In this document: piece after piece, positions 5,206 through 26,660 of the stretch
How positions within the stretch are numbered: the first letter of the stretch is position 1
How the letters are laid out: the number at the start of each line of letters is the position of its first letter
Assembly: GCA_019637155.1 (NCBI GenBank)
Contig: JAHBWE010000001.1
Span: forward strand, 186,001 to 250,000
Source: Labilithrix sp.
GTDB lineage: Bacteria; Myxococcota_A; Polyangia; Polyangiales; Polyangiaceae
Length of the DNA stretch: 64,000 nt
Reading direction: 5' to 3'
Notes under the pieces: model-generated
What the model was told of the DNA's origin: nothing
The model's database searches: none
The model's input: the letters and a program-made list of their open reading frames with translations, nothing else
Program-made: the position numbers and the translations under genes

Positions 5206-8200
5206 TCACTTTTGCCGGCGCGGCTTGGTGCTCGTCTTGGGCTTGCGCTTTCGGCGCGCGAACCAGGCGCCCTTCTTCTGGGGTCGCGGCGGCGGCGTGA
5301 CGATCACGCGGAGCGCGGCGTTGGTGGTGCCGTCGGCGTTCTTCAGCCATACGCGCTGGAAGGGGATCGTCTTACCGTCCTTCACGAGCGCGTCGCCGAC
5401 GAGCGCGATCGCGCCGGCGCGCGCGAGGGCGCCGAGGACGTGCTCGAGGCCGCGGCGATCGAGCTCTTTGTCGCCGACGACGTCGCGATGGAGCTGCCCG
5501 ACGGTGCGCCCGTCGCGTTCGCGGAGCGCGGCGAGGACCTTCGTCGCGGCCGCGTCTTCGCGCTCGCTCGGCGCGCGGAAGCCGAGCGCGATGCACGTCT
5601 CGGGCGCGCAGACGTCGCACGCACCGCACGGCGCGCCGCCGTCGTGCTGATCGCCGAAGTGGGTGACGAGCTGGAGCATCCGGCACGTCGCCGTCTCCGC
5701 GTAGCGCCGCATCTTCGCGAGCGCCTCTTGCTTCCGCGCGCGCGCGGCCTCGTAGGCGGGCCGCCAGGCGCCGCCGGCGGGGAACGCGTTGCCGTCGGCG
5801 TCGAGCGTCGCGCCGCCGCTCGCGACGAGCTTCTCGAGCGCCTTCTCGACGACGTCGGACTTCGTCTTGGTCTTCCGCGCGATCTTCGCGACGGGCGCGC
5901 CCTCCGGCGGGAGCGCCTTCTGCACCTTCGCGACGACGCTGGTCTCGGGGTAGTCGCGCTCGAGGAAGAACTCGTGCGTCTTGGTGTCGACGAACGACCA
6001 GAGGAGCACGGCGCGGGACGGTTTGCCGTCGCGCCCGGCGCGGCCGATCTCCTGGTAGTAGCCTTCGAGCGAGGAGGGGAGGGCGGTGTGGATGACGGTG
6101 CGGACGTCGGGTTTGTCGATGCCCATGCCGAAGGCGGTCGTCGCGACGATGACGTCGAGCGCGCCGCCGAGGAAGGCGGACTGCACCTCGTCGCGCACGT
6201 TCGCGGAGAGCCCGGCGTGGTACGCCGCGGCGCGCATCTTCTTCAGCGAGCCGGCGACCTTCTCGGCGTCGCTCCGCGTCGGCGTGTAGACGATCGCGGG
6301 TCGGCGCGCGGGGTCGGCGAGGAGCTCCTTCACGATCGCGGTGCGCTCGCTCGGGTTCCGCTCGATGACCTCGACCGCGATGTTGTCGCGCCGGAACCCG
6401 TGGATGAAGCGCGCGGGCGCGTCGAGCCGGAGCTGCGCGCCGATGTCGTCCTGCACCGGTCGCGTCGCGGTGGCGGTGAGGGCGATGACGGGCGCGGGGC
6501 GCAGGAGCGGCAGGCGCTCGCCGAGGAGGCGGTAGTCGGGCCGGAAGTCGTGACCCCACTGCGAGATGCAGTGCGCTTCGTCGATCGCGATGAGCGTGGG
6601 CTTCCGGCGCGCGAGCATCTCGGGGAAGCCCGGGACACGCAGCCGCTCGGGCGCGATGAAGAGGAAGTCGAGCGCGCCGTCGAGGTACGCCTGACACGCC
6701 GCCCGCGACGCGAGCCGCGGCCGCCCGGAGTGGATGCGCTCCGCCGCGACCCCGCGCGCGGTGAGCTGCGCGACTTGGTCTTCCATCAACGCGATGAGCG
6801 GGCTGACGACGAGCGTGGTCCCACCTCGCGCGAGCCCCGGCAGCTGATAGCAGAGCGACTTCCCCGCGCCCGTCGGCATGACGAGGAGCACGTCGCGCCC
6901 CGCCGCCGCCGCGCGACACACGTCCTCCTGATACGGCCGAAACCCCCCGAACCCGAACACACGCTGCAGGAGCCCGCCAAGGTCGGAGGGCCGCTCCCCA
7001 CGAGGCACCCGCGCCACCACGGCAGGCGCCTCGAGCGCCGAGAGACTCAGCTGCCCCACCGCGCCACCCTCACGACTCGGCCTCGCGTCGCGGCTCGGTC
7101 CCAGTTGCACGCGCGCGTCGCCGGTGGGTTCAGCGCGACTCGGCCTCGCGTCGCCGGTCCCGTCGCGGTTCGGTCGCGGTTGCGTGCGCGCGCCGTTGCT
7201 GCCGACAGGCTCGTTGCGGCTCGGCCGGGGTGGTCTGCGGTGCTCGCGCGCGGGCGGCTCCGGCTCGTGGTCGGCCCACGGATGCGTCTCGGGCTCGTCG
7301 TCGCCGCGCACGAGCCGGCGCGCGCGCGACGACTTCGGCGGGGGCGGCGCCGGGCTCGATGCGGCTTGCTCCTGCGTGGCGTATGCAGCGGAGAGGAGGT
7401 CGGCGCGGGAGGAGCGCGGGCCGTTGGGCTCAGGTCGCGTGTGTGTGACGTTGGTGATGACGTCGCGGACGTAGGCCTCGATCGCGGACATGAAGCCCGC
7501 CAGGGTCTCGGCGCCGCGCTCGATGCGGGTGAGCTTTGCTTCCCACTCGCCGGTCATCGCCGGGCTCTTCACGTGAGGATGCACCATCGCGACGAGCGCG
7601 ATCCCCTTGTCCGTGGCGGCGAACGTCTTCTCGTCGCGGACGACGTACCCACGCGTCAGGAGCGTCTCGATGATCGCCGCGCGCGTCGCCGGCGTGCCGA
7701 GCCCGCACTCCCGCATCGCTTGCGAGATCTCCTTCTCGTCGACGAGGCGGCCCGCCGTCTCCATCATCGTGAGGAGCGTCGCGTCGGTGAAGCGCGGCGG
7801 CGGACGCGTCTGCTTCTCGACCGCCCTCGCGTCGAGCACCTGCTTCGTCTGACCACGCTCGAGCCCCCCGGGCAGACCTGGCGGCGGCTCCTTCGCCCGC
7901 GCCGTCGTCACGTCGAGCACCTTCCAGCCTCGCTCCTCGACGCTCGTGCCGGTCGCGAGGTAACGGTCCTTCGTCTCGCCGTTCGTCACCACCGTGATGA
8001 CGCTCGTCACCGCGTAGACATGATCGCCGTGCCAGGCGGAGAGGAGGCGGCGGCAGACGAGGTCGTAGATGCGCCGCTCGTCGCTCGTCAGGTCCTCGGG
8101 CGCGGCGCGATCGGTCGGGATGATCGCGTGGTGATCGGTCACGTGCGCGTCGTCGACGAACCGTTTGCCGAGCGGTCGCGCGCCGGTCCCCTCGGCGAGG

Positions 8201-9249
8201 AGCGCGCGGTACGGCTCCGCGATCGCGCGGACGACGCCGGGGAGCTCGCCCGCGACCGTCTCTGACAGGTACCGGCTGCTCGTGCGCGGGTACGTGATGA
8301 GCTTCCGCTCCTCGTAGAGCTTCTGCGCGATCTGGAGCGTGCGCTGCGCGGTGAAGCCGTAGAGGCGGTTCGCGTGACGCTGCAGATCGGTGAGGTCGTA
8401 GAGCTGCGGCGGCGGGAGGCGCCGCGTCTTCCGCTCGACCGAGTCGACCTTCGCCGCGCCGGTCTTCGCGCGAAGGACGATCGCGGCGGCCTCCTCGGCG
8501 TCCGGCGCGAAGCGGATCGCCTCGTTCTTCCCCGGCGAAGCTCCGACGTACGTGCCGGTGTACTTCCCGCCGCCGCCGCCGCTGTCGCCGAAGTCGGCCA
8601 CCACCTCGAGGTAGTCCTCCGGGACGAAGTCGCGGATCTCGAGCTCGCGCTGGACCAGCATCGCGAGCGTCGGCGTCTGCACGCGACCGACCGAGAGGTG
8701 ATCGTCGTGGAGGAGGCTGTACACGCGCGAGAGGTTCATCCCGACGAGCCAGTCCGCGCGGCTCCGCGCGCGCGCCGCGTCGGCGAGGCGATCGAAGTCG
8801 CTCCCCGGCGCGAGCGACTTGAACCCGCGCGCGATCGCCTCCGCGGTGAGGGAGGAGATCCAGAGCCGCTTCACCGGCTTCTTCGAGCGCGCGGCCTCGT
8901 AGACGTAGCGGAAGATGAGCTCGCCCTCGCGCCCCGCGTCCGTCGCGCAGACGACGCCGCGCACGGCGGGATCGACGAGGAGCCGGCGCACGACGGCGTA
9001 TTGCTCTTTCGTCTTCTCGCCGACGACGAGCGGCCACGAGGGCGGGACGATCGGGAGATCGGCGAGGCGCCATCGCTTCCACGCCGGGTTGACGTCGTGC
9101 GGCTCCGCGAGCGCGACGAGGTGACCGATCGCCCAGGTCACGATCCAGCCGCCGCCGCTGAAGTGCCCGTCGCCGCGCGCGCGGGCGCCGAGCACCTGCG
9201 CGATGTCGCGCGCGACGCTCGGCTTCTCGGCGACGACGAGGACGGTCAT
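5206..9249 (-). CDS. Topoisomerase III-RecQ helicase fusion protein
   Basis: This is one uninterrupted 1347-residue frame. Residues 1 to about 600 are a type IA topoisomerase III: TOPRIM start (VLVVAEKPSVARDIA), acidic TOPRIM motif ATDAGREGE near 103, active-site tyrosine in LITYPRT at Tyr320, and no zinc fingers after the core, as in E. coli TopB. A polar Arg/Pro/Glu linker spans about 605-745. Residues about 755-1347 are a RecQ helicase: FRPYQ, Walker A MPTGAGKS (Lys797), DEAH box near 890 (IDEAHCISQWGHDFR), GMGIDKPDVR, motif VI IGRAGRDG, a four-Cys zinc module (CRML, then CGACDVC), a winged-helix-like RQC region and a basic tail. No HRDC domain is evident. RecQ and Topo III act together in decatenation and double-Holliday-junction dissolution; here they are covalently joined. 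Confidence 0.93.
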   Translation of the reverse strand: MTVLVVAEKPSVARDIAQVLGARARGDGHFSGGGWIVTWAIGHLVALAEPHDVNPAWKRWRLADLPIVPPSWPLVVGEKTKEQYAVVRRLLVDPAVRGVVCATDAGREGELIFRYVYEAARSKKPVKRLWISSLTAEAIARGFKSLAPGSDFDRLADAARARSRADWLVGMNLSRVYSLLHDDHLSVGRVQTPTLAMLVQRELEIRDFVPEDYLEVVADFGDSGGGGGKYTGTYVGASPGKNEAIRFAPDAEEAAAIVLRAKTGAAKVDSVERKTRRLPPPQLYDLTDLQRHANRLYGFTAQRTLQIAQKLYEERKLITYPRTSSRYLSETVAGELPGVVRAIAEPYRALLAEGTGARPLGKRFVDDAHVTDHHAIIPTDRAAPEDLTSDERRIYDLVCRRLLSAWHGDHVYAVTSVITVVTNGETKDRYLATGTSVEERGWKVLDVTTARAKEPPPGLPGGLERGQTKQVLDARAVEKQTRPPPRFTDATLLTMMETAGRLVDEKEISQAMRECGLGTPATRAAIIETLLTRGYVVRDEKTFAATDKGIALVAMVHPHVKSPAMTGEWEAKLTRIERGAETLAGFMSAIEAYVRDVITNVTHTRPEPNGPRSSRADLLSAAYATQEQAASSPAPPPPKSSRARRLVRGDDEPETHPWADHEPEPPAREHRRPPRPSRNEPVGSNGARTQPRPNRDGTGDARPSRAEPTGDARVQLGPSRDARPSREGGAVGQLSLSALEAPAVVARVPRGERPSDLGGLLQRVFGFGGFRPYQEDVCRAAAAGRDVLLVMPTGAGKSLCYQLPGLARGGTTLVVSPLIALMEDQVAQLTARGVAAERIHSGRPRLASRAACQAYLDGALDFLFIAPERLRVPGFPEMLARRKPTLIAIDEAHCISQWGHDFRPDYRLLGERLPLLRPAPVIALTATATRPVQDDIGAQLRLDAPARFIHGFRRDNIAVEVIERNPSERTAIVKELLADPARRPAIVYTPTRSDAEKVAGSLKKMRAAAYHAGLSANVRDEVQSAFLGGALDVIVATTAFGMGIDKPDVRTVIHTALPSSLEGYYQEIGRAGRDGKPSRAVLLWSFVDTKTHEFFLERDYPETSVVAKVQKALPPEGAPVAKIARKTKTKSDVVEKALEKLVASGGATLDADGNAFPAGGAWRPAYEAARARKQEALAKMRRYAETATCRMLQLVTHFGDQHDGGAPCGACDVCAPETCIALGFRAPSEREDAAATKVLAALRERDGRTVGQLHRDVVGDKELDRRGLEHVLGALARAGAIALVGDALVKDGKTIPFQRVWLKNADGTTNAALRVIVTPPPRPQKKGAWFARRKRKPKTSTKPRRQK

Positions 9250-14229: not shown

Positions 14230-14483
14230 AATGGATCGCCTGCTCCCTCTTCGTCGCCCTCGGCCTCGTCGCGTGCGCCCCGACCTCGACGCCGCGCATC
14301 CGCGTCGCGCGCGACCTCGGATGCACCGCCGACGAGACGACGACCGTCCGGATCGACGAGCGCCGCTGGCGCGTCAGCGGATGCGGGCGGACCGCGATCT
14401 ACCTCTGCACCTACCCCGTTCGCGACTGCTGGCGCGAAGGCGAGATCCAGCCCGCTCAGCCCGCTCAGCCGCCGTCGGACTGA
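14226..14483 (+). CDS. Small Cys-containing lipoprotein, function unknown
   Basis: The 85-residue protein has a signal sequence KWIACSLFVALGLVAC (lipobox LVAC, Cys near 17). The body contains four cysteines (GCTADE, SGCG, LCTYP, DCW) and ends in a short QPAQPAQPP run. The start overlaps the stop of the DUF2330-like gene (ATGA), so the two are translationally coupled. The 3' end overlaps by 19 nt the end of the convergent giant TPR gene. Only the two-gene operon suggests a role, namely at the envelope with its neighbour. Confidence 0.7.
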   Translation: MKWIACSLFVALGLVACAPTSTPRIRVARDLGCTADETTTVRIDERRWRVSGCGRTAIYLCTYPVRDCWREGEIQPAQPAQPPSD

Positions 14484-17400
14484 AGCTGCTCGAGGAGCTG
14501 GCGCGCCTCCTCGAGGGTGGGATCGTCGTCGATCGCGCGCTTCAGGAGCATCATCGCGCGGCGCGTGTCGCCCTGCTGGCGCGCGATCTCGCCGAGGTGC
14601 TGGTACGCGATCGCCTTCGGCATCGGCGCCGCGACCTTGAGCATCGTGATCTGGCGGAGCGCGCGTTGTGCAACCTCCAGGTTGCCTAGCTCGAGCCCGA
14701 GGTACGCGAGCTCCGACGCGACGACGCCGTTCTGCGCGTCCATGTCGAGCGCGGTGACGAGGTGGCCGAGCTCGGTGTTGCGATCGCCGAGCATCTCCGC
14801 GATGCGCGCGAGGCGGTGGTAGAGCGCGGAGAGCTCGCGCGCGCGGCGGCCCTTGAACGTGCCGATCGTGCGCGTGAGCAGCTCCTGCGCTTCGTCGAGG
14901 CGGTTCGCGGAGGCGTACGCGTCGGAGAGGAGCGCGGCGCAGTCGAGATCGGCGGGGCGGAGCGCGTGCGCCTCTTCGAGGGCGGGGATCGCGTCGCTCG
15001 CGTCGGGGTTGCCGCCGTTCGGATCGGCCGCCGCTTCGAGGTAGAGCTGCCCCGCGCGGACGAGGCCGTCGAAGCGCGGGCCGACGTCGCCGTTCGCGCG
15101 CGCGTCCTCGATGACGAGGCCGGCGAGCTCGCGCAGCGCGCCGATCTGCTCGTAGAGCCACGCGAGGCGCTCGCGCAGGTTCGCGTCGTCGGGCGCGGCG
15201 ACGCGCGCGCGCTCGAGGCCGCCGCGCGCGTCGGCGAGGCGCCCCGCCTTCTCGCACGTCTCGAGCAGCTTGAGCGCGGCCTCGACGATGCCTTCTCCTT
15301 CTTCGAGGCCGACGAGGCGCCGGTAAGTCGCGCTCGCGGTGTCCCACCGCTCCTCGAGCTCGTCGACGTACGCGATCGCGCGGAGGGTCGCCTTGTCCTT
15401 GCTGTCTTGCTTCAGCAGCTCGGTGAGGACGTTGCGCGCCTCCTCGATGTCGCCGATCTCGAGGCGGAGCGAGGCGATGCGGAGGCGATGGATGCGCCAG
15501 AGCGCGACGTCGCCGCGGCCCGCCGCCTGGAGCGCCATCTTGCCGAGGTGATCGGCGAGGTACGCGCGGAGCTCGAGCTTCCCGGCGGTGACGGCCTCCT
15601 CGAAGTCCTCGAGCGCGCCGTCCATGTCGTTGAGGCGCGAGCGCAGGACCGCGCGCCGCGAGATGAGCTCGATCCGGAACGGATCCTCCGGCGTCACCGC
15701 CTCGAGCGCGGCGCCGAGCTCGGCCTCCGCCGTCTTCAGCTCGCCGGAGGCGGAGAGGGTGTCGACCATCTCGAGGAGGAGGAGGGGATCGCTCGGATCG
15801 GCCGCGCGCGCGTCGCGCAGGATCTTCGCCGCCTGCTCCGGATCGGAGAGCTGATCGCTGTAGATGTGCGCCGCCTCGCGGAGGCGGAGGCTCTTCTCGC
15901 TCGCGTCGGCGCGGCCGTTCGCGTCGAGGACGAAGAGCTCGGCGAGCTTCGCGAACTCGCTCGTCTCGCGGTAGATCGCCTCGAGTCGATCGCGGAGCTG
16001 GACGCTGCGCGGCGCGCCGCGGAAGCCGGTCTCGAGCGCACGGAGCGCGCCCTCGACGTCCTCGAGCGAGCGGCGCGTGTCGTGGAGCGAGAGCGCGAGC
16101 GCCTCCGCTTCCTCGCCGTGCTCGGTCGCGAGGCGGCGCTCCATCACGTCGGAGCGCGCCTCGATGTCCATGTCCTCGTCGTGCATGCGCTCGAGCGCGA
16201 TCAAGACCTCGCGCGCGTGCGGATCCCAGTCGAGCGCGGCGTAGTAGACGTCCTTCGCCTGGTTGCGATCGCGCTTCTCGAGGAGCATGCCGAGCCGGCG
16301 CGACAGGGAAGAGACCGCCTCCGCGTCCTGGCGGTCCTTCGCCGACTCGAGCTGGCTCGCGAGGAGCTGGGCGAGGTCTTCCTCGCGCCCGCCGCGCTCG
16401 AAGATCGTGCCGAGCAGGTGCGCCGCGTCGACGTTGGCCGGGTGCTCGTCGACGATGTCGCGCAGCTCCTGGGCCGCGTCGTCGTCGCTGAGCTTCAGCT
16501 TCTGCATCTGCACTTTGACGCGCTCGAGCCGGAGCTTCGAGCGCTCCATCGGATCGTCGACGAACTCGACGACGCGCGCGACGAGCGCGACGAGCTTCGA
16601 GAACTCCTCGAGCCGGCGGTAGACGTCGAGGAGCATCTCCCACGCGTCGCGGTCCTGCGGCTCCTTCTCGTGGAGCTCCTCGTAGATGGAGGAGGCGAGG
16701 CGGAGGTCGGCGAGCGGTCCGGAGGCGAGGCCGGCGACCTCGAAGAGGAAGCGCCGCGCCGCGTCCGGCTCCGCGATCTCGGCCGCCTCGCGCTTCAGCT
16801 CCGCGGCCTCGCGCACGCGGCCCGACTCCTCGCAGCGCCACGCGAGGAGCGCGAGCGCCCAGACGCGGCCCTCCTTGTCCTCGTGCTCCCGCTCGAGGTA
16901 GCGGCGGAGCAGCGACTCGGCGAGCTCCTTGTCCTCGATCTTCTCAGCGAGCTCGACGGCCTCCTTCATCGGGCCGGTGCCGGCGCCGGGGAGCGTCCAG
17001 CGCCGCGTGAGCGCGTCGACGAGGGAGCGCTCGCGGCCGTCGACGCGCGTGAGGCGCTCGTAGATGTCGATGATGCGCCACGCCTTCGGGTGTTTGTCGG
17101 AGGCCTCGCGGAGGAGCTGCTCCGCGCGCTCCTGATCCTCCTCCGTCGCGAAGGCTTGCTCGAACGCGTCGCAGCCGGCATCGACGTCGCCGGAGCGGAA
17201 GCGGAGCTGCGCGAGGCGGTAGAGCGCATCGGCGGAGGCGCCGCCGGCCTCGGCGTCGAGGTCGACGCGCATGCCGAGGACGCGCGCCTGCGCGGCGTCG
17301 TCGCCGAGGCGCTCGTAGACGCCGGCGAGGGTGGAGAGGAGCTCGCGGTCCTGCGGGCGCGCAAGGACGGCGCGCTCGTAGTGGCCGGCCGCCTCGGCGT

Positions 17401-20400
17401 CGTCCTTGTGCTCGTTCGCGGCGATGTAGCCGAGGCGGGCGAAGAGCATGCCGGCGAGGGCGGGATCCGTACCCGTGTATTCTGCAATCGAACGGACGCG
17501 GCCCTCGTAGTTGAGGAGCTTGTGCGTCGCGGCGGCGAGGCGGAAGGCGGCGTCGTGGGCCTGCTCGTTGGTGGGGTCGAGGTCGATCGCGCGGAGGATC
17601 ATCTCGAGCGCCTCGTCCTTGCGATCGAGGTGCGCGTCGAAGAGGAGGCCGAGCTCGGTGCGGAGCGCGGCCTCGTCGTCGGGGTTGCCGCGCTCGAGGC
17701 GGGTCGAGAGCGCGCGCGCGAGGTTCATGTGATCGCCGGCGCGACGGAGCGACGCCTCGAAGCGGCGCGCCTCGACGCGGTTCTCGTTCGCGAGCTCGAA
17801 GGCGGACTCGAGGATCTCCTTCGCGCGGTCCTGATCGTCGAGCCGCAGCGCGATGCGGGAGAGCTCGAACATGACCTCCGAGCGCGTGACCGGCGACTCG
17901 TCGGTCGGATCGTCCTGCCGGCGGAGGACGGTGAGGAGCGCGCGGTAGGAGCGCTCGGCGCGATCGAGCTGGCCGTCGTCGCGCGCGAGCTCGGCGAGGG
18001 CGCGGAGGATCTCGGCGTTCGCGGGATCGATCCGCGTCGCGGCGTCGAGCTCGACGAGGGCGCGCGCGCGATCGCCGACCGCGAGGTCGAGGCGCGCGAG
18101 GTAGAAGTGGACCGGCGCGCGCTCCTTCGGGCGGCGGCCGCCGAAGGCCTCGATCAGGGTGCGGAGCAGCGTGCGCGCTTCCTCGAAGCGCTGCGCCGCG
18201 CCGAGCGCGTCGGCGAGCGAGAGCTTCACCGCGTTCTCGTCGGGCGCGAGATCGGCCGCTTGCTCGAGGAGCGGGATCGCCTTCTCGGGCTCGTTCGTGC
18301 GGCCCCTATGGAGCGCCGCCGCTTCACGCAAGCGCGCGAGGCGCGTCGCCTTGTCGGGCGCGTGCTGCGCGCCCTCGGTGAGGAGGACCGCGAGCGCGGG
18401 CCAGTCCTGCGCCGCGCGGTACGTCTCGGCGAGGCGCACGCGCACGATGTCGGCCTCGGGATCGCGGGCGACCTCGGACTCGAGCTTCGCCCGCGCCTCG
18501 GCCTTCCGGTTCGCGGAGACGAGCGCGTCGGAGAGGCGGAGGTTCACCGCCGCGCGCTGGGCGCCGTCGGTGAGCTCGCGGAGGCGATCGAGGTACTTCG
18601 CGGCGTCGTCGAACGCCTTCTCCACGGTGGAGAGGCGCGCGAGGTCGTCGTACGCGCGCGTGCGCTCCTCGAGCGCGACGACGCGGCGGAGGTGCGCGAT
18701 CGCGCGCGGCAGGTCGGCGAGCTGCTTCTCGGAGACCTCGGCCGCGCGGGAGAAGAAGTCCGCCGCGATCGTCTTGTCCTCGGCGCGCTCGGCGAGCTCC
18801 GCCTGCGCGGAGAGGAGCTCCTCGAGCTCGGTCCAACGCTCCTCGCGCTGGAGGAGGCCGGCGAGCATCTTCACCGTCGCTTCGTGGCGACCGGACTCGG
18901 CGAGGTTCTCGCGGAGGACCCCCGCCGCGCGCTCGACCGAGCCGAGCTCGTCCTCGATCGGCGCGACCTCGAGGCGGAGGTAGAGCCGCGCGCGGACGTC
19001 CTTCGCCGTGCCGACGAGGTGGCGCTTGAGATCGAGCAGCTCCTGGCGCCGCCCGCCCGCTTCGTAGAGTGCGACGAGGCGCTGGACCGCCTCCGCGTCG
19101 TGCGGGTCTTCCTCGATCAGCTTGAGGTAGATCGCGACCGCGCGATCGACCGCGTTCAGCTTGTCGACCGCGACCACCGCCGCCTCGTGGCGGAGCGCGC
19201 GCGCCTTGTCCGTCTTCCACGGCAGCTGCGACGTGTCGAGGAGGAGCTGGACGACGCGGTCGTTGTCGCCTTCGTCGCCGTAGATGCGGACGAGCTCGCG
19301 CGTGGCGCGATCGACGTAGTGCTCCGGCGCCTGCGCCGCGCTGGTGGCGCTGTTGCCCGCGATCGTGACGCCGAGCCAGCGCTCGGCGGACAGCTTCAAG
19401 AGCCGGTCGTAGATCGACTTCGCGAGCGCGCGATCTCCGACGCTGTTGACCGCGGTCTCCGCCGCCTCGGAGAGGAGATCGAGATCGCCGCCGGTCGACT
19501 CCGAGAGGCGGAGGAGCGAGTCGACGAGGGGGCGGCCGCGCACGCGGCGCTGCAGCTTCGCGAGCTCGGCGAGGAGCGGCGCGTTGGTCGGGTCGTGCCC
19601 GAGCGCGCGCGTGTACGCGGACTCCGCCGCGTCCGGATCGCCGCGGCGGTCGCGATGCCAGATCGCGATGACCTCCTCGAGATCGCGCGCGAGCCCCGGC
19701 GCGAGGCCGGCGCCGTCGTGGACGAGCGACGCGAGCGAGAACGTGATCGAGTCCCAGCCCGAGCCGACGACGGCGGCGTCCTCGATCGCGTCGATGAGGC
19801 TGCGCTCGAGGTTGTCCCGTGCGCGCGTCGACTCCACGAGCGCGCGCGCGGCCGCGTCCCAGCGTCCGGTCTTTCCCGCGACGCGGATGACCGCGGTCGC
19901 GGCGTCGAGCTCGCCGGGGACCTGATCGTCGACCTGGACGTACGCGTCGAGCGCGGCGCGCGGCTCCTCGAGCTGGTTCTCGAGGACCTGCCCCATGCGG
20001 TAGCGGAGGTTCCGCGCCCAGTCTTCGGTCTTGCCCTCGATGCACTCGCGCAGCGTCTCGGCGAGGGCGCGCCACGCGCGGGTGCGCTCGGCGAGGCGGA
20101 AGAACTCCTCGACCGTGTCGAGGCGCGTCGGATCGAGGAGCACCGCGCGGCGGACGAGGACGAACGACGCGTCGGGATCGTCGGCGCGGTCCTCGGAGAT
20201 CTTCGCCGACTCCATGAGGATCGCGACCTGCTTCACCTCCGGGGTGGGGTTCAGGTCGGAGGCGGCGGCGAGGCGGTGCTCGGTGAGGTCGAGGATGAGG
20301 CGCCAGTCGTCGGCGGTCTGGTACGCGGTGAGGAGCACGCGCACGACCTCGGCGCGCTGATCGGCGCGGCGGAGGAGGGAGCGGAGTCCGGCGCGCGCGC

Positions 20401-23400
20401 CTTCGTTCCGCGGATCGTTGAGGAGCGCCTGCTCGTAGCTCACGATCGAGCCAGCGATCTCGTCGAGCTGCTCGCGCTGGACGTCGCCGAGCTCGCGCAG
20501 CGTCTCCGCCTTCTCGGTCGCGTTCGGCGCGCGGGTGGCGGCGCCGGTGAGGTGCTCGGCGAGCTCGTCCCAGCGCTGCGTCGTGCGGAGGAGCGACGAG
20601 AGCGCCTTCGTCCCGTCGTCGGAGTGACCGAAGACCTGCTCGATGTCGCGCCAGGTGTCGATCGACTCCTCGGTCGCGTCGAGGTTGTCGCTCAGGATCC
20701 GCGCGACGCGCACGCGATCGGTGCGCCGCAGCTCTTCTCCGCGCTCGCTCTTCGCGGCGCGCTTGTCGAGGACGGCGATGAGGGAGCGCCAGCGCTGCGC
20801 CTTGTCGAACAAGAGGACGAGGCCGTCGAGCGCCTCGGGATCGCCGGCCCGCACCTCGAGGCGGCCCTCCCACGCCCAGATCGCGCGGTCGTTCTCCTCG
20901 AGCTCCATCGCGAGGCGCGCCGCCTCGCCGAGGACGTGCCACTTCACGTCCGGCTCCTGCTCGAGGATCGCGAGGCGCTCGAGGACGTCGAGGCGATCGT
21001 TCTTGCGCTCCGCGCGCGCGAGGAGCGGCTCGACGTGGCGGCACGCCTCGAGCAGCTTCGCGTCGGCGATCCCCTGCACCGCGAGGATGCGGAAGAACAG
21101 CTCGATCGCCTTCTCGATGTCGCCGATGTCGTGGGCGGTGACCTCGCCCGCGCTCATCAAGAGGTCGACGCGGAGCACGTCGTCCTGCGAGTCGTCCGCC
21201 GCGGCGACGAGGACCTCGGCGTAGCGATCGTAGCGGCCGATCCGCGCGGCGACGGTCTTGAGCTCCTCGCGGTGCGCGGGCTCCTCCGGCTCGAGCAGCA
21301 CGAGCGACGCGAAGTGCTCGAGCGCCTGGTCGTCGTTGCCGAGCGCGGCGTAGAGGCCGGCGAGCTGGAGGTGGCGGCGGATCCGCTCCTTCGAGGAGCG
21401 GACGACCTCGAGCTCGACCTCGAGCACGCGCGCGAGGTTCGCGTCGTCGTTCTCCGCCTCGTAACGCGCGCGGAGGAGCGCGGCGGCGCGCTGGCGGACG
21501 AGGCCGCGCTTCGGCGGCATCGGGAAATACGAGTCGCGGCGGCCGTCGGGCGGCGGCGGGAGGGACTCCTTGATGTCCGCCGTCTTCGGCGCGAGCGCGA
21601 GGATGCGCTCGAGCAGCGTCGTGACGTCGATCGCGGGCGGCGGCGGCGCGAACGACGCGGACGAGGCGAGCGGGATGTCCGGCTGCATCTGCACTTCGCC
21701 GACCGCGGCGGTGTTCGTGACGATGTCCTCGACGACGATGAGCGCGCTCGAGGGATCGTTGAGCTCGTCGAGCCAGAGCGACGCGATGCGGGAGCGCTCG
21801 CGCTGCGCCTCGTCGGGCGGGAGGTTCGCGAGGCGGAGGCCGCGGAGGGTGATGAGCTCGCGGTGGCAGCCGTGGCGCTCGTAGAGGCGCTCGAGCGCGG
21901 CGGTGAGGCGGACGTTCCCCGGCTTCAGCTCGAGGAGCTGCTCGAAGTAGCGGATCGCGCGCTGGGCGTGGTTGGCGAAGTCCTTCGCGATCTGGGCCGC
22001 TTCTTCGAGGAGCTCGAGGCGGCGCTCCTTGTCCGCGCCCTCGGCGGCGCGATCGTAGAGCGAGAAGAGGTCGTCCCAGCGCTCGTTCGCGTCGAAGATC
22101 AGCTTGAGGCGATCGAACGCCCACGTGTCCTCGGGGTCGATCTCGAGGAGCCGCTCGAGCACGCGCACGACGCGGTCGCTGTCCTCGTACCACTCCTCGT
22201 AGAACGCGACCGCGCGCTGCCCGAGCTCGATCGCGTCGGCCTTCGACAGCGCCTGCGCGCGCGGGTTTTGGAGCGTGCCGCGCAGGACCGCCTCGTACAT
22301 GTCCGCGAGCGGATCGGCGGAGGTGACCTGGCGCGCGATCGCCTCGGCGCGATCCCAGAGCATGAGCTCGGCGGGGAGGTCGCTCACCGCGCGGAGCGCG
22401 ACTTTGTAAGCGTCGGCGCCGCGGTCGTACTCGGCGAGCGTGTCGAGGTAGCGCTCGTAGCGCTCTCGCGTCGGCTCGCCGTGCGAGACGATGTGATCGA
22501 GGATCTTGAGCTTCTGATCGGGGTCCTCGACCGCGTCGAGCGACTGCTCGAGGACGCCGGTCGCGCGCCCGCCGACCTCGGGATCGGTGAGGAGCTTCGC
22601 GGCGAGGCCGATCGCGGCGTTGTCGCCGGGGGACACCTCGAGCACGCTCGCGATGCGGTCGAGCGCTTCGCCCTGACGGCCCGGGCGCTCGACGAGGATC
22701 GTCGCGATCTGCACGTCGAGCGCGTTCTTCGCTTCCCCCTCGCTCGCGGCGTGACGCGCGGTCAGGGCCGAGAGCGCGCCCTCGACGTCGCCGTGCTTGA
22801 GCGAGAGGCGCGACACGGCCGCGAGCGCCTCGAGGTCCGACTCGTCGGCCTCGACCACCTTGCGATACAGCTCGAGCGCGGTCTGCTCGTGACCGAGCTC
22901 GCGCTCCTCGGACTCCGCCCACGCGAAGAGCGCGCGCGCCTTCTCGTCCGGCTTCGCGTGCTCGACGCGCCAGCCGTGGAGCCAGCGCACGTCGCGCGTG
23001 CGCGCCTGGCTGCGCGGCATCCCGCGGAGGAGCTCCTCCATCCCGAGCGACGCGGCCGACGTCGTCGTCCCGTCCTTGCTCCGCTCGAGGATGCCGCGGA
23101 AGGCGGCGGCGGCGTCGGACCACGTCGCCTCCTTCGAGGCGAGGACGCGCGCCTTCGCGAGCGTGAGCTCGCCCCAGGTGCCTTCGTTCACGTTCGAGCC
23201 GAGCGCGCCGAGCGCGCGATCGACCGCGGCGGCGAGGTCCTCGGTCCTGCCCGTCTTCTGCGCGAGGGTGGCGAGCTCGGCGAGGACCTCGCGGTCCTCC
23301 GGCGCGAGGGCGAAGGCCGATCGCGCCGCGTCGAACGCGCGATCGTGCTGCTTCAGCTCGTCGGTGAGCGTGCGCGAGAGCCGGCGCAGCAGCTCCACCC

Positions 23401-26400
23401 GCGTCGCGTTGCCGTCGGCGAGCTCGAGGAGCACCTCGTAGAGCGGCGGGACCTTGTCCCACGTGCCGCTCCGCTCGTGGAGCTCGACGAGCTGCGCGGT
23501 GGCGACCGCGTCCTTCGGCGCGATCGCGCGGAGGCGATCGAGGAGGCCGATCGCGGCGCTGTCGTCGCCCATGTTGGTGGCGATCTCGGCGCCCTGGCGC
23601 AGCCGCTCGATCGCCTGCTTCGGATCGCCGCTCCGCTCGGCGAGGGCGGCGAGGCGGCCGAGGCACTCCACCTGCTGGTGCGGATCGGCGGTCTCCCGCA
23701 CGCGCCGCTCGAGCACCGCGCGGAGGAGCACGTTGTCGCCGAGCCTCGTCGCGATCTCCTCGACGAGGTCGAGCTCCGCGTCGGAGAGCTGGCTGTCGTT
23801 GAGGAGCGCGAGGGCGTGGAGCGCGCCGCGGACGCCCTGGCCGTGCGCGGTCGCGATCTGCGCGAGCTGCGAGCGCGTCGAGCGGATCTCCTCCGCGCCG
23901 GTCGCGACCGCGAGGTAGTCCTCGAGCCGATCGCAGAGGTCGTCCCACGCCTCGGTCTCGGTGTAGAGCTCCACCAGCGCGCCGTGCGCGGCGCGGTCGG
24001 TCTGGTCGTCGGCGAGGGCCTGTTTGTACGCGGCGATCGCGGCCTTCGGATCGAGGAGCTCGTAGCGCTCGATCGTGCCGATGCTGTGGAGGAGCTGCCG
24101 GCGGCGCTGCGGCTCCGCCCCGCGCTCGAGCGCGGCGTGGTACAGCGCGACCCGCTCCTCGGGGTTGCCTTGCTCCTGGAGCAGCTGATCGACGCGCGCG
24201 ACGAGCTCGGGGTTCGAGGGCTCGAACGCGAGCGCGCGGCGGTAGGCGGTGAGCGCCTGCGCGACGTCGCCGGCGTTCGCGCTCTCCTCGCCCGCGCGCA
24301 TCGCGAGGTCCATCAGCTCCTGCGACTCGATCTCCTTCTCGCCGAGCGCCTTCACGAGGAGCGCCGCGCGCCGCTTCGGGTCGAGCTGGGTCGTCAGCTC
24401 GTCGAAGCGCGCGACCCAGGGGCCGACCGGCTCGGAGCTCTCGACCGCCTCGCCGAGCGCGCGCGCGACGATTTCGACCGCTTTGTCTTCTGAGACGGAT
24501 TCCGCCACTTTCGCGGCTTCCTCGAAAGCCGCGAGCCGGTCCTGCACGATCGGCGACGACGCGGCCCGGATCTCGAGGACGCGGAGGAGGCCCTGCCCGT
24601 TCTGCTCGCCGCGATAGATGGGCTCGAGGACGGCGGCGGCGGCGAGGCGGTGCTCGGTGCCGAGGAGGAGCTTCTCGAGCGTGCTCCGGCTCGTCTTCTC
24701 CGCCGCGTCGAGGTCGAGCGCCCGCTTGAACGCGTCGATCGCGAGGTCGGTCTCGCGCGTGCGCTGGAGGTACACGTTGCCGAGGCGCGCGAGGATCTCG
24801 GGCTGCTCTTCCTCCGCCGCGAGCTCGGCGTCCTTCGAGAGCGCCTCCGCGAGCTCGGGCCACTTCCGCTCCTGCTCGAGGATCGGGACCCACTGCACGT
24901 AGACGTCGCGCGAGGGGCCGAAGCGCTCCACGAGCGCGCGCCACGCCTCCGACGCCGCGGCGGCGTCGCCCGACTGCATCCGCACCTCGGCCGCGCGGTA
25001 GGCGAGGCCGCGCGCGTCGTCGGGGTCCTCGGTGTCCTTCGCGCGCTCCTCGAGGACGTAGGCGAGGTCTCCCCACTGCTTCCTGTCTTCGTAGAGCGGC
25101 TCGAGGGCCGCGAGCGCGCGCGCGCGGGCGGGGGAGTCGACGAGGCGGCGCCACGCGGCGATCGCGCGGTCGACGTCGCCGAGCTCGTTGCCGCAGATCT
25201 CGGCGATGCGCTCGTTCGCGGCCTGCTTCTCCTGCTCGTTGTTGGAGAGCTCGCCGATCTTGGCGAGCACCTCGACGAGGTTCTTCACGTCGCCCTCGCC
25301 GGCGTAGACGGAGGCGAGCGCGCGCGCGGCGGTGAGGACGGCGAGCGGATCCGCGCTCGGCGCGGCGAGGACGCCGGCGAGGGTCGTGCGCGCGCGCTTC
25401 AGGTCGCCGCCCTTGAGCAGGAGGTCGCCCATCTCCGCGGTGATGCGGGAGCGGATGCCGGCGTCCTTCGCGACGGTGGAGACGCGCGCGAACGTGCGCG
25501 CGACCTCGAGCGGGCCCTTCAGCTGCGAGCCGAGCTGCACGTAGCGCTGGCGGAGCTCGTCGTCGGCGGGGTCGATGCCGAGGGCTTGCTCGAACGCCTC
25601 GAACGCGCCCTGGTAGTCGCCGAGCTCGTCCTGCTTGAGGATGCCGATGCGGCGGAGGACGTCGCGGCGGCGGGGGCCGCGCGTGTGCTCGAGCTCGATG
25701 CCGAGGTACTTCGTGCGCTCTTCCGTCGAGGTCGCGCCGGCGACGAGGGTGGCGGCCGCGCGCGCGGCGAGCCCCTTGCTCTCGAGGAGGCGCGTCGCGA
25801 CGCGGCGGGCCTCGACGTTGGTGGGGTCGACCTCGAGGAGCGCCTCGACGTGAGGCATCGCGCGCTCCGGCTCCTTGAGCTGGTTCGCGAACACCTCGAT
25901 CAGCTTCGACCGGATGCGCGTGGCCTCCTCCGCCGGCGGCGCGGGCTCGCCGCCGAGCGCCTGCTCGAGCATGCGCGCGACGTCGCGGAAGCGGTTCGCC
26001 TTGATGAAGCGCTGCTCGAGCGCGTTCCGCAGCTCTTCGTCGCCGGGCTCGAGGCGAACGAGCTGCTGGTAGGTCTCGATCGCTTTGTCGTCGAGGCCGG
26101 CCTGCTCGAACAGCGCCGCGGCGCGCTTCAGGAGCTCCACCTGCTCGGGCCGCTGCCGGTGCCCCGCGGTCTGCACGCACAGCTCGGCGAGCCGCTTGTG
26201 ATCTTCGGTGCGCGTGAGCTGCGCCTCGAGCCGCTCGAACGCGGCGACGTGCCCGGCGTGCGCGGCGAGGGCCTTCTCGAGGTAGGTCGCGGCGCCGACG
26301 TCGTCGCCGAGCTGATCGCCGAAGAAGGTGGCGGCGCGGTACAGCACCTCGGCCTGCACCTGCGGCAAGAACGTCTTGAGCTTGCGACCGGCCGCCGCCG

Positions 26401-26593
26401 ACTCGTACGCGAAGGCGAGCTCCGAGACGCGGTCGTGCTTCACCGCCGCTTCGTGCAGCTCCTTCCACATGTCGTGGTCGAGCGCATTCCGCGAGAGCGC
26501 CGACATGATCTGGTCGAGCACCTCCTCTTCGTTCTGGAGGCTTGCCTCGAACGACGGAATACCTGCGCGTGACTGTCGGGCGGACGGACCCAT
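14465..26593 (-). CDS. Giant cytoplasmic TPR-repeat protein (4042 residues)
   Basis: ATG 26593 is preferred over TTG 26623. The protein has no signal peptide or membrane segment and is almost wholly helical, with TPR and TPR-like motifs throughout. Examples are AIETYQQLVRLEPGD near 190, AFEAFEQALGIDPADDE near 345, AIDAFKRALDLD near 635, ALTAYRRALAFEPSNPE near 800 and AMMLLKRAIDDDPTLEEA at the extreme C-terminus. A Pro-rich break (APPPPAIDV, then LPPPPDGRR) near 1650-1695 divides the superhelix. Giant all-TPR proteins are known in Myxococcota; length and architecture recall AgmK/GltI of the Myxococcus gliding machinery, but that identity is inference. The protein presumably scaffolds a large complex. 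It stands alone between convergent genes, and its 5' region (26594-26660) must hold its promoter. Confidence 0.9.
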   Translation of the reverse strand: MGPSARQSRAGIPSFEASLQNEEEVLDQIMSALSRNALDHDMWKELHEAAVKHDRVSELAFAYESAAAGRKLKTFLPQVQAEVLYRAATFFGDQLGDDVGAATYLEKALAAHAGHVAAFERLEAQLTRTEDHKRLAELCVQTAGHRQRPEQVELLKRAAALFEQAGLDDKAIETYQQLVRLEPGDEELRNALEQRFIKANRFRDVARMLEQALGGEPAPPAEEATRIRSKLIEVFANQLKEPERAMPHVEALLEVDPTNVEARRVATRLLESKGLAARAAATLVAGATSTEERTKYLGIELEHTRGPRRRDVLRRIGILKQDELGDYQGAFEAFEQALGIDPADDELRQRYVQLGSQLKGPLEVARTFARVSTVAKDAGIRSRITAEMGDLLLKGGDLKRARTTLAGVLAAPSADPLAVLTAARALASVYAGEGDVKNLVEVLAKIGELSNNEQEKQAANERIAEICGNELGDVDRAIAAWRRLVDSPARARALAALEPLYEDRKQWGDLAYVLEERAKDTEDPDDARGLAYRAAEVRMQSGDAAAASEAWRALVERFGPSRDVYVQWVPILEQERKWPELAEALSKDAELAAEEEQPEILARLGNVYLQRTRETDLAIDAFKRALDLDAAEKTSRSTLEKLLLGTEHRLAAAAVLEPIYRGEQNGQGLLRVLEIRAASSPIVQDRLAAFEEAAKVAESVSEDKAVEIVARALGEAVESSEPVGPWVARFDELTTQLDPKRRAALLVKALGEKEIESQELMDLAMRAGEESANAGDVAQALTAYRRALAFEPSNPELVARVDQLLQEQGNPEERVALYHAALERGAEPQRRRQLLHSIGTIERYELLDPKAAIAAYKQALADDQTDRAAHGALVELYTETEAWDDLCDRLEDYLAVATGAEEIRSTRSQLAQIATAHGQGVRGALHALALLNDSQLSDAELDLVEEIATRLGDNVLLRAVLERRVRETADPHQQVECLGRLAALAERSGDPKQAIERLRQGAEIATNMGDDSAAIGLLDRLRAIAPKDAVATAQLVELHERSGTWDKVPPLYEVLLELADGNATRVELLRRLSRTLTDELKQHDRAFDAARSAFALAPEDREVLAELATLAQKTGRTEDLAAAVDRALGALGSNVNEGTWGELTLAKARVLASKEATWSDAAAAFRGILERSKDGTTTSAASLGMEELLRGMPRSQARTRDVRWLHGWRVEHAKPDEKARALFAWAESEERELGHEQTALELYRKVVEADESDLEALAAVSRLSLKHGDVEGALSALTARHAASEGEAKNALDVQIATILVERPGRQGEALDRIASVLEVSPGDNAAIGLAAKLLTDPEVGGRATGVLEQSLDAVEDPDQKLKILDHIVSHGEPTRERYERYLDTLAEYDRGADAYKVALRAVSDLPAELMLWDRAEAIARQVTSADPLADMYEAVLRGTLQNPRAQALSKADAIELGQRAVAFYEEWYEDSDRVVRVLERLLEIDPEDTWAFDRLKLIFDANERWDDLFSLYDRAAEGADKERRLELLEEAAQIAKDFANHAQRAIRYFEQLLELKPGNVRLTAALERLYERHGCHRELITLRGLRLANLPPDEAQRERSRIASLWLDELNDPSSALIVVEDIVTNTAAVGEVQMQPDIPLASSASFAPPPPAIDVTTLLERILALAPKTADIKESLPPPPDGRRDSYFPMPPKRGLVRQRAAALLRARYEAENDDANLARVLEVELEVVRSSKERIRRHLQLAGLYAALGNDDQALEHFASLVLLEPEEPAHREELKTVAARIGRYDRYAEVLVAAADDSQDDVLRVDLLMSAGEVTAHDIGDIEKAIELFFRILAVQGIADAKLLEACRHVEPLLARAERKNDRLDVLERLAILEQEPDVKWHVLGEAARLAMELEENDRAIWAWEGRLEVRAGDPEALDGLVLLFDKAQRWRSLIAVLDKRAAKSERGEELRRTDRVRVARILSDNLDATEESIDTWRDIEQVFGHSDDGTKALSSLLRTTQRWDELAEHLTGAATRAPNATEKAETLRELGDVQREQLDEIAGSIVSYEQALLNDPRNEGARAGLRSLLRRADQRAEVVRVLLTAYQTADDWRLILDLTEHRLAAASDLNPTPEVKQVAILMESAKISEDRADDPDASFVLVRRAVLLDPTRLDTVEEFFRLAERTRAWRALAETLRECIEGKTEDWARNLRYRMGQVLENQLEEPRAALDAYVQVDDQVPGELDAATAVIRVAGKTGRWDAAARALVESTRARDNLERSLIDAIEDAAVVGSGWDSITFSLASLVHDGAGLAPGLARDLEEVIAIWHRDRRGDPDAAESAYTRALGHDPTNAPLLAELAKLQRRVRGRPLVDSLLRLSESTGGDLDLLSEAAETAVNSVGDRALAKSIYDRLLKLSAERWLGVTIAGNSATSAAQAPEHYVDRATRELVRIYGDEGDNDRVVQLLLDTSQLPWKTDKARALRHEAAVVAVDKLNAVDRAVAIYLKLIEEDPHDAEAVQRLVALYEAGGRRQELLDLKRHLVGTAKDVRARLYLRLEVAPIEDELGSVERAAGVLRENLAESGRHEATVKMLAGLLQREERWTELEELLSAQAELAERAEDKTIAADFFSRAAEVSEKQLADLPRAIAHLRRVVALEERTRAYDDLARLSTVEKAFDDAAKYLDRLRELTDGAQRAAVNLRLSDALVSANRKAEARAKLESEVARDPEADIVRVRLAETYRAAQDWPALAVLLTEGAQHAPDKATRLARLREAAALHRGRTNEPEKAIPLLEQAADLAPDENAVKLSLADALGAAQRFEEARTLLRTLIEAFGGRRPKERAPVHFYLARLDLAVGDRARALVELDAATRIDPANAEILRALAELARDDGQLDRAERSYRALLTVLRRQDDPTDESPVTRSEVMFELSRIALRLDDQDRAKEILESAFELANENRVEARRFEASLRRAGDHMNLARALSTRLERGNPDDEAALRTELGLLFDAHLDRKDEALEMILRAIDLDPTNEQAHDAAFRLAAATHKLLNYEGRVRSIAEYTGTDPALAGMLFARLGYIAANEHKDDAEAAGHYERAVLARPQDRELLSTLAGVYERLGDDAAQARVLGMRVDLDAEAGGASADALYRLAQLRFRSGDVDAGCDAFEQAFATEEDQERAEQLLREASDKHPKAWRIIDIYERLTRVDGRERSLVDALTRRWTLPGAGTGPMKEAVELAEKIEDKELAESLLRRYLEREHEDKEGRVWALALLAWRCEESGRVREAAELKREAAEIAEPDAARRFLFEVAGLASGPLADLRLASSIYEELHEKEPQDRDAWEMLLDVYRRLEEFSKLVALVARVVEFVDDPMERSKLRLERVKVQMQKLKLSDDDAAQELRDIVDEHPANVDAAHLLGTIFERGGREEDLAQLLASQLESAKDRQDAEAVSSLSRRLGMLLEKRDRNQAKDVYYAALDWDPHAREVLIALERMHDEDMDIEARSDVMERRLATEHGEEAEALALSLHDTRRSLEDVEGALRALETGFRGAPRSVQLRDRLEAIYRETSEFAKLAELFVLDANGRADASEKSLRLREAAHIYSDQLSDPEQAAKILRDARAADPSDPLLLLEMVDTLSASGELKTAEAELGAALEAVTPEDPFRIELISRRAVLRSRLNDMDGALEDFEEAVTAGKLELRAYLADHLGKMALQAAGRGDVALWRIHRLRIASLRLEIGDIEEARNVLTELLKQDSKDKATLRAIAYVDELEERWDTASATYRRLVGLEEGEGIVEAALKLLETCEKAGRLADARGGLERARVAAPDDANLRERLAWLYEQIGALRELAGLVIEDARANGDVGPRFDGLVRAGQLYLEAAADPNGGNPDASDAIPALEEAHALRPADLDCAALLSDAYASANRLDEAQELLTRTIGTFKGRRARELSALYHRLARIAEMLGDRNTELGHLVTALDMDAQNGVVASELAYLGLELGNLEVAQRALRQITMLKVAAPMPKAIAYQHLGEIARQQGDTRRAMMLLKRAIDDDPTLEEARQLLEQLQSDGG

Positions 26594-26660
26594 TGCGAAG
26601 TCAGGTGAAGCCCGAGAGTACAAGAACTCGTTAAGGAAAGGACAAATAGGGCGTGGTCTC

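Follow-up and report, generated by a model that had tools for sequence, protein, structure and literature searches.

Whether RecQ helicase and topoisomerase III (Topo III) act as partners in Bacteria, in the way that BLM/Sgs1 and Top3 do, is disputed, and this question is raised directly by a gene of Labilithrix sp. in which both enzymes are encoded in one chain. In animals and yeast BLM (the Bloom-syndrome helicase)/Sgs1 and Top3 are separate proteins. RecQ helicases unwind DNA in the 3' to 5' direction, and type IA topoisomerases require single-stranded DNA. For E. coli, stimulation of Topo III strand passage by RecQ in vitro is described (Harmon 1999/2003; Suski & Marians 2008; both as cited in PMC8185306, PMC13244152 and PMC7614492). 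A physical interaction of the two E. coli proteins was not seen, and recent E. coli genetics has Topo III working with RecG, not RecQ (PMC13244152); it is this work that keeps the dispute alive and makes a natural fusion relevant to it.

A topoisomerase III and a RecQ helicase in one chain

The window analysed here is a stretch of 64,000 nucleotides (positions 186,001 to 250,000 of contig JAHBWE010000001.1), in which the gene and its parts are arranged as follows.

5206..9249, minus strand: topoisomerase III-RecQ fusion gene, 1347 codons (1347 aa), ATG start at 9249, stop at 5206-5208
8851..9243, minus strand: Toprim domain (Pfam), residues 3-133, with E8, K9, D104 and E108 invariant in 32 fused proteins
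7489..8793, minus strand: type IA topoisomerase core (Pfam Topoisom_bac), residues 153-587, fold match obtained via the homologue L053
8290..8292, minus strand: catalytic Tyr320, invariant in 32 fused proteins
6985..7431, minus strand: interdomain linker of low complexity, residues 607-755 (149 residues), 20-386 aa in homologues
6448..6939, minus strand: RecQ RecA-like domain 1 (Pfam DEAD), residues 771-934, with Walker A K797 and DEAH 890-893
6025..6336, minus strand: RecQ RecA-like domain 2 (Pfam Helicase_C), residues 972-1075, with QEIGRAGRD 1066-1074
5755..5949, minus strand: insert between RecA2 and the zinc site, residues 1101-1165 (AlphaFold, RecQ part of the window protein), putatively winged-helix-like
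5608..5751, minus strand: RecQ zinc-binding domain (Pfam RecQ_Zn_bind), residues 1167-1214, with C1189, C1208, C1211 and C1214
5344..5565, minus strand: C-terminal winged-helix-like domain, residues 1229-1302, RQC-like by predicted fold (AlphaFold; no score with Pfam RQC)
5209..5343, minus strand: basic tail, residues 1303-1347, where most relatives have HRDC

The protein passes the NCBIfam models PRK07726 (DNA topoisomerase 3; 654 bits vs a cut-off of 597) and recQ_fam (385 vs 220) and scores 550 bits against the cut-off of 516 for TIGR01056, while the NCBIfam RecQ equivalog TIGR01389 (E. coli RecQ type) is not reached (440 vs 640 bits). Among solved structures it is closest to E. coli topoisomerase III and to bacterial RecQ cores. 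The original prediction of a single 1347-codon frame carrying the full motif sets of both enzymes is thereby borne out, with both halves above family cut-offs and the catalytic residues present; as judged from its sequence, the window protein is a complete topoisomerase III joined to a complete RecQ helicase with a zinc site.

The catalytic residues checked are shared by the entire set of 32 aligned fused proteins. Invariant positions include E8/K9 and D104-A-G-R-E108 of the Toprim domain and Tyr320-Pro-Arg322 in the topoisomerase half, together with the Walker A motif GAGKS (Lys797), DEAH 890-893, a W-G-H-D-F-R-P segment, GRAGRD 1069-1074 and the zinc ligands Cys1189, Cys1208, Cys1211 and Cys1214 in the RecQ half. 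The linker varies from 20 to 386 residues across the fused homologues and its sequence is unconserved, which argues that no fixed geometry is under selection.

Integrity and distribution of the fused gene

A genome scan (one genome per species, using peptide patterns from the window protein) revealed, among the best 80 loci, 38 besides that of the window in which a single open frame encodes both enzymes; two of these (L050 and L051) have the 5' end cut by the contig. The fused loci among these 80 belong to Myxococcota and Acidobacteriota. Among the carriers in the former phylum are Minicystis rosea and Nannocystis poenicansa, both with complete genomes, and N. exedens with large contigs, along with others; those in the latter are Bryobacterales, Terriglobia and Thermoanaerobaculia bins. 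The covalent fusion put forward in the original prediction, together with the listing of taxa suggested there, has thus led to a real and conserved family extending over two phyla and not to a one-off. Carriage by viruses or plasmids was considered and rejected: no relatives were found in viral contigs, and among the 5000 best records no plasmid covers 80% of the query.

The possibility that a sequencing or assembly error merged two genes is negligible. It could draw on one homologue, L038 (Nannocystis pusilla Na p29), in which the fusion falls into three overlapping frames; this is the only broken locus, and its frames probably reflect sequencing errors, as close relatives are intact. Against an artefact stand the 38 independent open frames over the junction, complete genomes among them, and the codon usage of the window gene itself, where GC at the third codon position remains highest in frame across the linker (0.85, vs 0.94 in the halves). 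The homologues rule it out, and both outcomes initially named as speaking against a fusion (a frameshift in the linker, or homologues split at this point) fail, given that the other 38 loci read through. A separate start of RecQ is possible but not favoured, since the linker contains no in-frame ATG but only GTG codons.

Predicted structure

A homologue with one of the shortest linkers (L053, 1177 residues) was modelled by AlphaFold with pLDDT of 84.8 and pTM of 0.56, the linker being below pLDDT 50. The topoisomerase half of L053 (not the window's own) matches E. coli Topo III (1d6m) with a TM score of 0.86 by target length, supporting the four-domain toroid fold of type IA enzymes, and the remainder of the model matches RecQ cores. 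This model predicts no fixed contact between the two halves; the alignment behind it is shallow (35 rows), so that a weak interface might go undetected. The modelled chain looks like two folded enzymes on a tether, with their mutual orientation unfixed.

The RecQ part of the window protein, modelled by AlphaFold with higher scores (pLDDT 91, pTM 0.86), aligns over the RecQ core. In this model residues 1101-1165, inserted between RecA2 and the zinc site, form three helices and two strands, and the domain that follows the zinc site (residues 1229-1302, without a Pfam RQC score) has a similar HHH-beta-beta arrangement. We read both as predicted winged helices. A winged-helix-like insert ahead of the zinc site seems to be missing in E. 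coli-type RecQ.

HRDC domain and C-terminal tail

The lack of an HRDC domain in the RecQ part, as originally noted, holds for the window protein, in which Pfam detects no HRDC match, but it cannot be generalized to the fusion, as 21 of the 32 fused proteins do have this domain. In the window protein and in other lineages its place is taken by a Lys/Arg-rich tail, and the RecQ tree requires the HRDC state to have changed at least five times. Taken together, these observations indicate that the absence of HRDC is most likely a secondary, lineage-level loss rather than a founding feature of the family. A late frameshift in the window genome as the cause was rejected, with no HRDC remnant within the window.

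Several of the HRDC-less fused proteins have a short aromatic motif close to the C terminus (WFARRK in the window protein, AFFARMK in L010, AFFARRG in L027, AYFAKQA in L030, WFFINRN in L042 and WAFINKH in L063), possibly a protein- or DNA-binding motif.

Origin and inheritance of the fusion

The topB tree, in which separate TopB of Methylococcales, Verrucomicrobia, Desulfobulbaceae and Eubacterium serve for comparison, places the fused sequences in a single clade (SH-aLRT 96), and the fused/solo label changes only once, with the contig-truncated L017 counted as fused. The patristic distances of the two halves correlate at 0.93 over 37 fused proteins (permutation maximum 0.21). A single clade of the topoisomerase half and agreeing trees of the two halves make it likely that there was one ancient fusion, with topB upstream of recQ, which was then passed on as a unit within Myxococcota and Acidobacteriota. 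The two phyla are not cleanly apart on the tree of either half; there may have been transfer between them, or some of the bins may be mixed.

Four RecQ proteins of the fused clade (L024, L025, L048 and L052) are devoid of the topoisomerase half. In the draft bins of L025, L048 and L052 (G001, G002 and G003, respectively) no topB match was found, the topoisomerase half matching only TopA-like sequence, and no topB lies beside the recQ of L024. In the tree L025 adjoins L019, a fused protein; both come from Emb289P4 bins of Polyangiaceae. This placement points to a loss of the topoisomerase half there and suggests that such losses occurred in some lineages. A second, divergent fusion-type RecQ (50% identity, besides a copy at 60%) was observed in another Polyangiaceae genome, that of L029 (G004, C1276:761-2758 and C599:8280-8780), so fusion paralogues may exist.

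Genome context

As to separate copies of the two genes in the genome of the window (10.1 Mb, 46 contigs, 97% complete), for which the original prediction had proposed a check, the answer is divided: no other topB match was found, and a canonical RecQ with RQC and HRDC is present on contig C23. The fusion is thus the only topoisomerase III found in this genome and its second RecQ. A TopA with Zn-ribbon domains is encoded on C2.

The fusion gene is flanked by genes for a PAS/SpoIIE phosphatase (convergent, 10 bp away) and an M48 peptidase. The phosphatase, the window's only shared neighbour, groups with genes at five closely related Acidobacteriota loci. An operon or conserved neighbourhood was rejected: there is no repair operon around the fusion gene and no neighbour common to the fused loci as a whole. 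Elsewhere in the window (14465-26623, minus strand) lies an ORF of 4052 aa composed mostly of tetratricopeptide repeats.

Proposed function

The reading that we favour, at a probability of roughly 0.7, is that of a single-chain topoisomerase III-RecQ enzyme, a tethered 1:1 "dissolvasome" that would derive from one ancient fusion; the "all-in-one dissolvasome" of the original prediction thereby remains the most likely function. The RecQ half would move 3'-5', opening duplex or driving branch migration of joint molecules, the candidate substrates being double Holliday junctions, hemicatenanes and converging forks or late replication intermediates. The tethered topoisomerase III would act on the single strand so exposed, cutting, passing and resealing it, and linked duplexes would separate without crossover. 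The tether may stand in for the protein contacts or the RMI-type scaffold that link BLM/Sgs1 to Top3, handing single strands straight to the topoisomerase gate; it would provide a fixed 1:1 stoichiometry and a high local concentration, not a rigidly joined machine. For a broader proposal, that these proteins constitute a new family of bacterial single-chain dissolvases with RecQ and Topo III as obligate partners, stemming from one ancient fusion in Myxococcota and Acidobacteriota, the chances appear about even.

The tether could also serve co-expression alone, with the two enzymes of the chain working at separate times or places and the fusion being tolerated rather than selected for coupling. 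Such a role would fit the linker of 20-386 aa with no conserved sequence, the lack of a confident interdomain geometry (pTM 0.56) and the RecQ halves that stand alone in four relatives. We consider it rather unlikely, as the fusion has been kept over two phyla with both sites intact, even though recQ and topB are separate elsewhere. A different kind of alternative concerns the substrate: the main role of the protein might be linked to replication, at converging forks or precatenanes at termination and not at double Holliday junctions. In vitro resolution of converging forks is described for E. coli RecQ together with Topo III and SSB (Suski & Marians 2008, as cited in PMC7614492), and Topo III foci are reported at forks (PMC12448304). 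Sequence cannot separate this role from that of a tethered dissolvasome, with which it overlaps as a sub-case rather than being exclusive of it; as the main role it can be proposed only tentatively.

Far less probable is a reverse-gyrase-like enzyme performing an ATP-driven change of topology, even though reverse gyrase is the known case of an SF2 helicase module naturally joined to a type IA topoisomerase (PMC8185306). The domain order is reversed, the reverse gyrase model yields 115 bits vs a cut-off of 472 its best stretch being confined to the topoisomerase part, and the helicase, a full RecQ, has a zinc site and follows a flexible linker; on these grounds the assignment was rejected.

The tethered dissolvasome is retained as the preferred reading. 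A fusion that spans two phyla and keeps both active sites intact provides strong gene-fusion evidence for a real partnership in some bacteria, and, if the proposal is true, bacteria have an equivalent of the BLM-Top3 pairing, the negative E. coli genetics notwithstanding. The fusion would also offer one purifiable protein for studies of dissolution, decatenation and single molecules without RMI factors.

Comparison with known systems

In the open-access journal literature searched, no account of a natural Topo III-RecQ fusion was found, and protein databases probably list such fused chains under the name of one half. The parts belong to standard families, and it is the joined form that appears to be undescribed, reverse gyrase being the older helicase-topoisomerase fusion. 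Reverse gyrase has its helicase-like module first, and this module is of another SF2 type than RecQ. The fusion shares with it a type IA topoisomerase and an SF2 helicase module in one polypeptide, but differs in having the topoisomerase first, a flexible linker and a true RecQ with a zinc site.

Separate bacterial RecQ and TopB resemble the halves of the fusion, which pass the recQ_fam and PRK07726 models; they are encoded by two genes, whereas the fusion is one chain with Topo III first. The RecQ-first order, to which the fusion had been contrasted at the outset, has one real precedent in this analysis, namely Listeria, where separate recQ and topB genes follow each other in this order 23 bp apart. 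With the eukaryotic BLM/Sgs1-Top3-RMI dissolvasome the fusion has in common the combination of a RecQ-family helicase with a type IA topoisomerase III, which act as a unit there and presumably do so in the fusion. In that system, however, separate chains are held together by contacts and RMI proteins, while the fusion is one chain with a topoisomerase half of the bacterial PRK07726/TopB family.
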